Assembly: GCA_001275005.1 (NCBI GenBank)
Contig: JWZX01003240.1
Span: 1-23,168, forward strand
Direction of reading: 5' to 3'
DNA length: 23,168 nucleotides
Source: Chrysochromulina tobinii
Taxonomy: Eukaryota; Haptophyta; Prymnesiales; Chrysochromulinaceae
Shown in pieces: positions 3,512 through 6,967 of this stretch (position 1 is its first letter; the number at the start of each line of letters is the position of its first letter). Below the pieces are notes generated by a model. The model ran no database searches. It was not told the origin of the DNA and was given only the letters and a program-made list of their open reading frames with translations. Made by a program: the position numbers and the translations under genes.

Positions 3512-6500
3512 CTAGTTTGCATCGGTCTTAACATCCAAGAGGCCGCGCTCAAGGCGCTCCTTGGCCACCGCGTCCCTCAACATGTTGGTCCGCCGGAGAG
3601 ATCTGACGGCATTGACCACTTTATTGAGCCGTCGCTTGGCCCTTTGTCCTCTGATGAGAGTCAGCATGACGAAAATCGCGCGCAACTTCTTCTTAGCACG
3701 CTGCAGCACGCGAAAGCGCTCGAGATTATACTCAGCCAAATCGGGGTCCAGCCATTGATCCACCGCCCCTCCAATGATGGATCCTTCGTTGGGCACAAAG
3801 CCTCGGGGGTAGCGCTCGTGCAGCTGCTCCAGACGCTCCCGCAGCCCGCTCCATGATGGGAGCCACGCATTGCATGCCTCCCGAGTCCACCGGTTCCGGC
3901 TCGTGATCAGCTTCCTATAGAGAATCCACCACCCCTGGTCGCAGAGCACCCACTTGGGGTTCAGAGGCACTGCGTATCCTAGGTCGATGCGCGCAGATAG
4001 GAAATTGAGCAGCCCCTCGAGGTTCACGTACATCCAGGGCACCTGATGAGGGAGGCAATCGCATGCAATCAAAGGCCACCATAGGCCAATCAGGCATATC
4101 GCATACTGCCGGGCACCTGATGAGGGAGGCAATCGCATGCAATCAAAGGCCAGCAGGCACCTTGTTGAACATCGGCGCCTTTTGGAACCCAGCCCAGCAC
4201 ACAAGGAACTCTGTGTCAAGCTCCTGTGGGAAATGGAAGTTGAAGCATTCGGCGCCGTGCCGGACGGCGCCCGATGACCGTAGCGCCTTGACTGCAGCCT
4301 CGAAGATGCCATTTGTGGTCGGATCACCGAAGCCGTATCGCGGCGTCTCAATCTTTGGGCGGGCGCTCGTGCGCCGAACGAAGACTTTGAGATGAACGAA
4401 GACGAGGCATGGGTCTGAGCGGTATGCTCGTTGTGCTGGTGTTTCTTCGCCTCGAACCAACGGTGCATCCAACCGCCTGGAAGATCGCGGTTGTCGAGCA
4501 CCTGCTCAAGGTGACCAATCAGACGCACAGACGCACTCAGACGCGAGCACCTGCTCACGGTGCCCTATCAGATGGCACTCAGATGGCACTCAGATGGCAC
4601 TCAGATGGCACTGGAAATCAGACTCACTCAGACTCACTCAGAAGCACTCAGAGGTGCTCACCTCCTCAATGCGATCGAGCATCCACTCAATCTGCACAAT
4701 CTGGTTAGTCTCCATCGGCGTGTATCTCGCGTTCTTACTGCCGAGCAGCAAGCAGTCCATGTCGCTCGCTACCTGATAAGGGAGGTCATCAGAGGTCATC
4801 CGAGATACCAATCAGACCCAATCACATCACGCGGCTTCGCTATCGCTCGCTACCGGTCGCATCTGATCAGAGCCAATCAGAGCCAATCAGAGCCAATCAG
4901 AGCCAATCAGAGCCAATCAGAGCCAATCAGAGCCAATCAGCGCGCGGGCTCCGGTGACCCAATCAGCAATCAGCGCGGCTCCGGTGACCCAATCAGCGCG
5001 GCTCGCTACCGGTCGCATCTGATCTTCCTCGTGCGCCATCAGCAGCCCTCGAGGGTTGAGCGGTCTCATCGTATCGTATTGCCAGATGACCGACGGCGGC
5101 GTCGCGCTTGTGTCGGTGACTGCTTTCAGATTCAGGTCCATCAAGCTGGGCTCGCTCGCGCGTCCCGTGTCGCCGAAGCCACCTGCATCATGCCCAATGT
5201 CCTTTCGGATCACGTAGGTTTCCCACAGCAATCTTGCGGGCATCTCGACCCCGAAGCACTCAGTGGTGTCGGCAAACTTGTCGATGTTCTCCATGAGGCT
5301 CGTGACTCGCTCTTCCTCCTCCTCCTCCTCCTCCTCCTGGTCGCCACTGGCCATCTTGCCTGTCATCATCTCTAGAAACTCAGGAAACTGCAGTTGAGAG
5401 AGTCGAGAACTTTCGAGATCAGTCGATATTGCAGTTGAGAGAGTCGAGAGATCAGTCGAGATCAAGTTGAGAGAGTCGAGATCTTTCGAGATCAGTCGAT
5501 ATTGCAGTTGAGAGAGTCGAGAGATCAGTCGAGATCAAGTTGAGAGAGTCGAGATCTTTCGAGATCAGTCGATATTGCAGTTGAGAGAGTCGAGAGATCA
5601 GTCGAGATCAAGTTGAGAGAGTCGAGAACTGTCGAGATCAGTCGAGATCCCGCAGCACTGGTGGGGTTTTCCGGCCGAGTGACGGCCTGAGGGGGCTGCC
5701 GCACCTCGATGATCCCCGAACCATCGGCGTCGACGTCGGAGATCATCTCGAGCAGCTCCTCCTTCTCGACCTCGAAGCCGAGGGCACGCATTGCTATCTC
5801 GAGCTCGCGGTAGTCGATCGAGCCAGAGTGGTCGTCATCGAAGAGGTTGAACACATCGCGAAGCTCTTCGATCTGCTCTTCCGAAAGCCCTTGCTTCTTT
5901 GGCTTCTTGGCCTTGCGCGATGCTGGAGTGCGACGCACCTCTCGCGCTTCGCCATCTCGGGCGCCGTCTCGGTCGGCGTACAGCTCAGTCCCGGGTGGTG
6001 ACATGTGCCATTCGGCTGCCTGGCAAGCTGCTTGGAAATCAAAGTCCAGATCCTTGAGCGTGCCTTCCGTAAAGGCTTTCAGCTGACGGCGCGCCTTGCG
6101 ACTGACGCGCAGCATCTCCTCTTCCACACGTCGTAATTCCTCAAGAGCAGTGGCGCGTGACTCCTAGTGAACGGTCGGAGATTCGGCAGGAGAGGGGTAC
6201 CAGTCAGGAGACATCCGGAGACATCCGGTGCAATCAGAGGTCATCGGTGGCAATCAGAGGTCATCAGTGGCAATCAGAGGTCATCTGAGGTACTGAGAGC
6301 AGTAGAGGTCATCAGAGGTCATCATCAGAGGTCGTCGTCAGAGGTCATCAGTAAGTACCCGGTTCCGGTAAAAGACTCGGCAGCGTTGGTCCGCAGTCAT
6401 AGTCACCACGCGCCGCTTGTGAGCTTCTTCCGAGATCTGCAGAAACGGCACGAAGCCCGCCAGCAGCCCCTTGCGCGCGCTCTTGCCCTTGATGCTTAGC

Positions 6501-6967
6501 GCCTTGCCCTTCGCTCTCCCCGTCATCATCATGTAGAGCGCCTCGCGGCCCGTCGGGCGAAAAACGCCAAACCAATGCGAGTCGTCGGGGTCCTCAAGAC
6601 GGCTGCGCCGCGCGAGTCCCTTGGCACGCAGGTAGCCGAACGGCCCGCGTGAATCGCCGGGGCCCAAAAAGTCGCAGACCAGGTGACGCGGGTCCCTTTT
6701 CACAAAGTTGCCCAGTCCCCTTTTCAAGATTGCTAGCCGCTCCGCCCTCGTTCGATCCTTGAAGGCCACGTTCTGCGGCATTTGGTCCTTTGCCACCAAT
6801 CGCAACGGAGTGGTCTCGATGGGCTTTGGCCGTTTTCGGATGCCGAAGCAACCGAAATCGCCGAATTCGAGGAGGAATGCAAAGTCGCGCGGCTCAGCTA
6901 CTGCAGTGGTGACAAGCTGCATCGCAGGTGAGCGATAGCCCGGTGAAAAGCTAATGGATGGCGGCAT
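3512..6967 (-). CDS. Class II (edema factor/CyaA/ExoY-like) nucleotidyl cyclase with nested EF-hands
   Basis: I infer seven exons: 6967-6359, 6163-5705, 5387-5010, 4772-4662, 4501-4474, 4414-4161 and 4042-3512, giving 789 residues. Three motif blocks appear in the order known for class II adenylyl cyclases: KGKSARKGLLAGFVP (residues 160-174; substrate-binding lysines), SDMD (485-488; the metal-binding Asp-x-Asp) and HGAECFNFHFP (581-591; nucleotide-binding loop). A centrin-like EF-hand pair (loops 312-323 and 348-359) and a run of nine Glu lie between blocks 1 and 2. The intron at 5704 splits EF-hand 2 and the frame rejoins exactly. Residues about 720-775 form a basic helix that could bind calmodulin. 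Known family members make cAMP or other cyclic nucleotides and are activated by calmodulin or actin. The cyclase call rests on motifs, not alignment. The frame change near 4415-4473 is unresolved and could be a 59-base intron or a sequence error. Confidence 0.65.
4043..4160 (-). repeat. Cyclase intron 6 with duplicated acceptor segment
   Basis: GT-AG intron of 118 bases, phase 0. A 42-base block that includes the acceptor junction is exactly repeated at 4037-4078 and 4111-4152 (offset 74). AGGTGCC occurs at both the donor (AAG|GTGCC) and acceptor (CAG|GTGCC) boundaries. Confidence 0.75.
4502..4661 (-). repeat. Cyclase intron 4 with 11-base tandem repeats
   Basis: GT-AG intron of 160 bases, phase 0 (donor GAG|GTGAGC, acceptor GCAG|GTGCTC). 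On the plus strand AGATGGCACTC is repeated four times at 4570-4613, the last copy differing in one base, followed by two copies of GACTCACTCA at 4621-4640. A second GAGCAGGTGCTCG, like the real acceptor, lies inside the intron near 4545-4557. Confidence 0.7.
4773..5009 (-). repeat. Cyclase intron 3 with 10-base repeat array and boundary duplication
   Basis: GT-AG intron of 237 bases, phase 0. Seven exact copies of AGCCAATCAG fill 4871-4940 (sense strand CTGATTGGCT). The 9-mer GTAGCGAGC occurs at both the donor and the first exon bases after the acceptor. A 24-base copy of the exon 3/intron boundary (5001-5024) is present inside the intron at 4845-4868. Two near-identical blocks with CCGGTGACCCAATCAG are at about 4951 and 4981. 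Confidence 0.75.
5388..5704 (-). repeat. Cyclase intron 2 built of 73-base tandem repeats
   Basis: GT-AG intron of 317 bases, phase 0, splitting the second EF-hand loop between its Glu-9 and the following Phe. A 73-base unit starts at 5464, 5537 and 5610 with partial copies on either side. Each unit contains several GAGTCGAGA and GATCAGTCGA phrases, so shorter repeats are nested in the longer one. Confidence 0.8.
6164..6358 (-). repeat. Cyclase intron 1 with GGTCATCAGA-type repeats
   Basis: GT-AG intron of 195 bases, phase 0 (donor CGG|GTACTTAC, acceptor CACTAG|GAG). Variants of GGTCATCAGA and GGCAATCAGA recur about every ten bases (sense TCTGATGACC and TCTGATTGCC). The reading frame rejoins exactly across it. 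Confidence 0.75.

Follow-up and report, generated by a model that had tools for sequence, protein, structure and literature searches.

A class II-like cyclase gene of the haptophyte Chrysochromulina tobinii carries half a centrin within its predicted catalytic core

We analyzed a 23,168-nucleotide stretch of DNA from the freshwater alga Chrysochromulina tobinii (GenBank contig JWZX01003240.1, positions 1 to 23,168, our contig C2081 of the 53.15-Mb assembly; this whole stretch is called the window). On its minus strand, between positions 6967 and 3512, lies a gene whose spliced protein is a predicted class II nucleotidyl cyclase, related to the bacterial toxins edema factor, CyaA, and ExoY, with an EF-hand pair inside the cyclase core. 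This protein served as our query. The coding sequence runs from an ATG at 6967 to a stop codon at 3514-3512 and specifies about 790 amino acids. Five introns interrupt it, all GT-AG and all in phase 0, and they hold many short tandem repeats with periods of 73, 20, 11, and 10. An earlier sequence-only reading of this DNA had counted seven introns; we found these five, plus a possible sixth of the GC-AG type. The introns and the placement on a C. tobinii contig support its further claim that this is a resident nuclear gene; the ELP3 frame of the window is 100% identical, across 89% of its length, to a C. tobinii protein. The parts of the gene are as follows.

6359 to 6967, minus strand: exon 1, which holds the start codon, the N-terminal region, and block 1 of the class II core, set by translation and homologue alignment (donor GTACTT at 6358)
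6446 to 6490, minus strand: block 1, KGKSARKGLLAGFVP, with the second motif I lysine, K162; the first, K155, lies slightly upstream
5705 to 6163, minus strand: exon 2, with the helical part behind block 1, a linker, EF-hand 1, and the bulk of EF-hand 2
5705 to 5890, minus strand: first part of the captured centrin N-lobe (residues 295-356); the remainder is in exon 3 at 5387-5352
5804 to 5839, minus strand: EF-hand calcium loop 1, DDDHSGSIDYRE, identified by loop pattern and EF-hand_7
5388 to 5704, minus strand: intron 2, which interrupts EF-hand 2 and is dominated by tandem repeats (5392-5645, period 73, 3.5 copies)
5010 to 5387, minus strand: exon 3, with the end of EF-hand 2, a stretch of nine glutamates (Glu9), and re-entry into the cyclase core
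5310 to 5336, minus strand: the Glu9 linker behind the captured lobe
4662 to 4772, minus strand: exon 4, with metal-binding block 2
4766 to 4755, minus strand: block 2, SDMD, with S485, D486, and D488 in conserved columns
4161 to 4501, minus strand: exon 5 stretch, with block 3 and a possible short GC-AG intron or indel within about 4436-4346
4227 to 4259, minus strand: block 3, HGAECFNFHFP, the switch B equivalent, retaining H580, G581, E583, F585, and N586
3512 to 4042, minus strand: exon 6, with the C-terminal part and stop codon
3680 to 3706, minus strand: basic IQ-like helix motif LQRAKKKLR, common to many homologues

Translation placed the three blocks in order across the exons, KGKSARKGLLAGFVP, SDMD, and then HGAECFNFHFP, and between the first and second of them the EF-hand pair (5890-5705 and 5387-5352) followed by Glu9 (5336-5310), an arrangement that the sequence-only reading had described correctly. 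We performed an alignment-guided choice of the exon 1 donor: a site at 6406 leaves the frame open but loses 16 residues kept in homologues, and the donor at 6358 restores them. The Pfam scan, the homologue search, and the first edema factor alignment used the shorter draft protein (donor 6406); the search for relatives of the insert, the comparison of conserved columns, and the tree used the longer one (donor 6358).

Exon 5 contains a frame change, as the spacing from the conserved W-x-x-R-W to G-F-G-D is 122 nucleotides (2 mod 3). Of 124 proteins (120 homologues and 4 non-cyclase EF-hand proteins), 79 could be parsed by pattern at the same loop, where it spans 16 to 47 amino acids and is 19 amino acids long in 52. 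A GC-AG intron of 56 to 74 nucleotides would keep the frame open and leave 16 to 22 amino acids in the loop; candidates with GT-AG ends measure only 32 or 38 nucleotides and result in loops of 28 to 30. A sixth intron, of the GC-AG type and about 56 to 74 nucleotides long, may thus explain the frame change, although this fit is weak evidence because the GC dinucleotide is common here. The change may equally reflect an indel, the assembly being described as a draft from mixed 454 and Illumina reads (PMC4580454).

Homology of the encoded protein to the PF03497 family is beyond chance at the sequence level. Among 7,994 scored candidates, 320 matched the draft spliced protein at an E value of 1e-3 or lower (best, 1.7e-159), and precomputed annotation placed PF03497 (PF03497.23) on 119 of the 120 homologues among the matches listed. 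A profile of 41 homologues matched edema factor with an E value of 1.8e-5; in the same output blocks 2 and 3 were colinear with edema factor, neither being significant by itself. Both motif I lysines, K155 and K162, fall in conserved columns and align with K346 and K353 of edema factor, for which residue roles were taken from a review (PMC9223806). The metal-binding Asp-x-Asp pair, D486 and D488 (D491 and D493 in edema factor), and the His/Asn loop of switch B, with H580 and N586, are invariant across the 41 homologues, and the block 3 residues H, G, E, F, and N are also invariant in our alignment A1. The edema factor counterparts of the His/Asn loop are H577 and N583; H577 was not found in review PMC9223806.

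For P0001, the homologue with the highest score, the predicted fold resembles edema factor, CyaA, and ExoY far more than anything else, so that the class II relationship suggested earlier held in both a profile and a fold search. Taken with the sequence evidence, this modeled fold of a homologue supports the prediction that the C. tobinii gene encodes a nucleotidyl cyclase of the class II fold, and its reaction is probably the conversion of ATP to cyclic AMP (cAMP). When P0001 or P0068 was used to search the C. tobinii genome, the gene described here and a single paralogue came up each time. A search of that genome with the PF03497 family gave no matches, but it gave none in any of 14 control genomes either and is thus uninformative. 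Scans of viral genomes and of bacterial and archaeal genomes, each with two short peptide patterns, yielded 62 and 15 pattern stretches, respectively, none confirmed by tblastn; such patterns can miss distant relatives and likewise did not recover the known toxins.

The inserted EF-hand pair is half of the host's own centrin. Pfam assigned it to EF-hand_7 (1.6e-14), and its best match in the PDB is caltractin 3kf9, whose N-lobe scored 93 bits where the calmodulin part of 4il1 scored 64, making a calmodulin-like identity less likely. Over 77 amino acids, the pair is 83% identical to four C. tobinii centrin loci and 82% identical to a fifth. What had been called a centrin-like pair nested in the core is, by these matches, centrin derived. 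The five loci (L006 to L010, on contigs C1984, C2227, C1822, C1167, and C908) have near-identical N-lobe proteins and differ from one another by a proportion of synonymous differences (pS) of 0.15 to 0.33 (15 to 33% of synonymous sites). Their frames span both lobes, without the intron that divides EF-hand 2 of the cyclase, which suggests that intron 2 was gained after capture. As a centrin, the insert falls short of the usual four EF-hands in two lobes, having the N-lobe only; as a centrin N-lobe module it fits, with two canonical calcium loops and centrin-like sequence.

At the DNA level the insert is 79 to 83% identical to the five loci, with a pS of 0.49 to 0.69 and a proportion of nonsynonymous differences (pN) of 0.088 to 0.093. 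Nearly all amino acid change lies on the insert side, because the loci differ mutually by a pN of 0.006 or less. Twelve residues have changed in the insert, leaving loop positions 1, 3, 5, and 12 untouched; its net charge has moved from -9 to -17, and four lysines or arginines have been replaced by glutamate or leucine. Upstream, the similarity extends into the centrin N-tail, with L008 sharing 15 identical nucleotides in a row (depending on the locus, the score was reached in 0 to 5 of 200 shuffles); it fades past the downstream end of the lobe (5 to 39 of 200 shuffles). The capture thus took in the last part of the N-tail together with the N-lobe and left the C-lobe behind. We rejected an assembly chimera on the basis of the limited DNA identity to the five loci, the phase 0 intron inside the insert, and the cyclase frame that runs on both sides.

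We compared the insertion site with relatives to place the capture. In the C. tobinii cyclase, 324 residues separate GKS from SDxD, versus 158 to 291 in homologues with both motifs (a pattern-based measure that could be parsed in 90 of 120 homologue rows, less two in which the motif order was false), and none of the 120 homologues listed has an EF-loop pattern or a precomputed EF-hand domain between the blocks. In a tree of 51 rows with the insert omitted, the protein groups with P0001, P0002, P0003, and P0032 (support, 100/100); P0002 and P0003 were flagged there for unusual composition, and for some members of this clade the gene call is incomplete or imperfect. The loop at the insertion site is short in P0001 and P0003, holds Ser/Gly-rich filler in P0002, and is of medium length in P0032; P0049 also has low-complexity filler in the loop. 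Tree and loops together suggest that, within the set of relatives compared, the capture is confined to the lineage of the query and made use of a loop that tolerates changes in length. A search with the insert region (residues 205-440) returned 4 of 5,725 candidates, all EF-hand domain proteins and none with PF03497, and it returned no insert-free relatives either; metagenome gene calls may miss intron-rich genes, making this a weak test of absence. The paralogue in the C. tobinii genome (L001, contig C1267, 458-2155) is a class II-like cyclase with an open frame of 721 amino acids and no EF-hand in its translation, and it adjoins metagenome protein P0011 in the tree.

The nested half-centrin is what is new here, the catalytic kind being already known. 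Edema factor, CyaA, and ExoY are made and secreted by bacteria and require host calmodulin or actin (PMC9223806), whereas the C. tobinii cyclase is encoded by an intron-bearing nuclear gene of a haptophyte and carries an EF-hand pair of its own in the core. According to a 2022 review, class II includes only cyclases that bacteria secrete (PMC9223806). A 2023 structure-clustering paper reported a cluster of algal proteins whose structures partly match edema factor (PMC10584675) and which probably belong to the same wider family; it suggests that algae might use "similar toxin systems," and the portion consulted describes no EF-hand insertion, domain fusion, or mechanism. Among the matches listed from the open-licence PMC literature, judged by title and opening of the abstract, we found no fusion of centrin with a cyclase; algal cyclases of class II type came up in that 2023 paper only. 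Two homologues, P0083 and P0106, likewise join EF-hands to a cyclase of this family within a single polypeptide, but their EF-hands lie near residues 28-92, outside the core, accompanied by cNMP-binding domains, and both proteins fall outside the C. tobinii clade; PF03497 is precomputed for both, yet our local Pfam scan listed it for neither. Relative to centrin (caltractin), the insert is the N-tail end and N-lobe only, split by an intron and embedded in an enzyme. CAPE, in which streptophytes with motile sperm join a cyclase to a phosphodiesterase, is likewise multidomain (PMC8115329), but its class III catalytic domain has a different fold from class II (PMC9223806).

Homology, motif order, the predicted fold of a homologue, the centrin origin of the insert, the kept calcium ligands, and the low pN relative to pS are computed results; beyond them, we infer an active enzyme whose centrin lobe would bind Ca2+, with a change in activity on binding. 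We lean toward this reading, of a resident haptophyte cyclase of the class II fold with the N-half of a host centrin in a variable loop between motif I and Asp-x-Asp. The captured lobe would bind Ca2+ at micromolar levels; its counterpart in Chlamydomonas centrin has a reported dissociation constant of 1.2 uM (PMC8622359). Binding might shift the loop-bearing subdomain against the catalytic subdomain, or the acidic lobe might clamp in cis onto the basic C-terminal helix LQRAKKKLR. Either way, the protein would be a self-contained transducer of Ca2+ into cyclic nucleotide.

Several observations weigh against this reading. The query scored 20.4 bits against PF03497.21, under the gathering score of 25 (exon 1 alone scored 22.0, and homologue P0002 scored 25.1); 9 of 98 conserved columns are changed; and there is the frame change within exon 5. 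The folded model is that of P0001, which is 48% identical to the query protein over 51% of its length, and the Foldseek superpositions were poor (n = 12; query template modeling score, 0.16 to 0.23; root mean square deviation, 17.5 to 24.1). Certain centrin N-lobes are reported to be closed or weak Ca2+ binders (PMC8622359). Lastly, in the toxins the contacts with calmodulin or actin are made by switches A and C, located behind the aspartate pair in edema factor (PMC9223806) and so elsewhere in the chain than our insert, which precedes that pair; gating would therefore not simply copy the toxin geometry.

The half-centrin could instead be a targeting or assembly module that docks the cyclase at centrin-rich structures such as basal bodies or the haptonema, placing cyclic nucleotide production there. 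Some centrins require their N-terminal extensions for Ca2+-induced self-assembly (PMC8622359), centrin has been reported at the tip of the haptonema, whose coiling requires Ca2+ (PMC6398456), and the insert sits in a loop tolerant of length change. However, the capture lacks the C-lobe, through which centrins chiefly bind their targets, and with four lysines or arginines lost and a more acidic surface the insert may no longer assemble as centrin does. We regard this module as unlikely. Control by free host calmodulin or actin, in the manner of the toxins, with the insert a tolerated passenger, seems more doubtful still. It would suit the loops that hold low-complexity filler in P0002 and P0049, and the relaxed motif LQRAKxKLR, which we found near the C terminus in 50 of 103 testable homologues as well as in the query (the shuffle control mean of 0.0 rules out random composition and says nothing on binding). 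A passenger would not be expected to show pN far below pS and intact calcium ligands. Least probable of all is a decayed gene with a real indel in exon 5, or one altered to another enzyme activity: the short GT-AG options with their overlong loops and the nine altered columns would fit, but the motif residues are retained, the other five introns are clean and all in phase, one short GC-AG intron would account for both loop excess and frame shift, and a sequencing error is also possible in a draft of 454 and Illumina reads (PMC4580454).

Beyond the window gene, the company kept by this family suggests signaling. Precomputed domains among the 120 homologues listed include cNMP-binding domains (32), phosphodiesterase (PF00233; 3), PF00610, presumably DEP (2), and an ion channel (1). 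The channel fusion is P0019, and P0044, P0085, and P0099 bear the phosphodiesterase domain; these four speak against a toxin role for the family. The C. tobinii genome also has 11 match stretches for class III cyclase and 14 for phosphodiesterase, which, with the fusions, point to endogenous cyclic nucleotide signaling. We put at about even the broader proposal that the algal class II-like cyclases are an endogenous eukaryotic second-messenger family, with the C. tobinii member a single-chain enzyme gated by Ca2+ through half a centrin.

Elsewhere in the window, a gene at the contig edge (2-733, plus strand) encodes an EF-hand pair followed by a cNMP_binding domain (2.2e-18) and is, from its domains, a possible Ca2+/cyclic-nucleotide effector on the same contig as the cyclase. 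Anoctamin-like channel exons lie at 17452-20904 and 21099-21626 (minus strand), with an EF-hand pair encoded directly upstream on the same strand; together these are possibly one gene for a Ca2+-regulated channel. An intergenic direct repeat of about 40 bases (GACCCAAGGGGGAGTGGTCTACTATTTTTCATGTTTATCCG) occurs in two copies at about 1030-1150.

If gating by the captured lobe is correct, the calcium sensor that toxins borrow from the host would here be built into the enzyme itself, at another position in the chain. The half-centrin is a natural domain-insertion experiment, with an insert-free related cyclase in the same genome (contig C1267). A broad algal family with signaling-type fusions would alter the bacterial-only view of class II and give the class II fold, and its link to Ca2+ sensors, a nontoxin setting. 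Such an enzyme would also connect Ca2+ with cyclic nucleotide signaling in haptophytes; as context from the literature, the haptonema of these algae coils within milliseconds in a Ca2+-dependent manner (PMC6398456).
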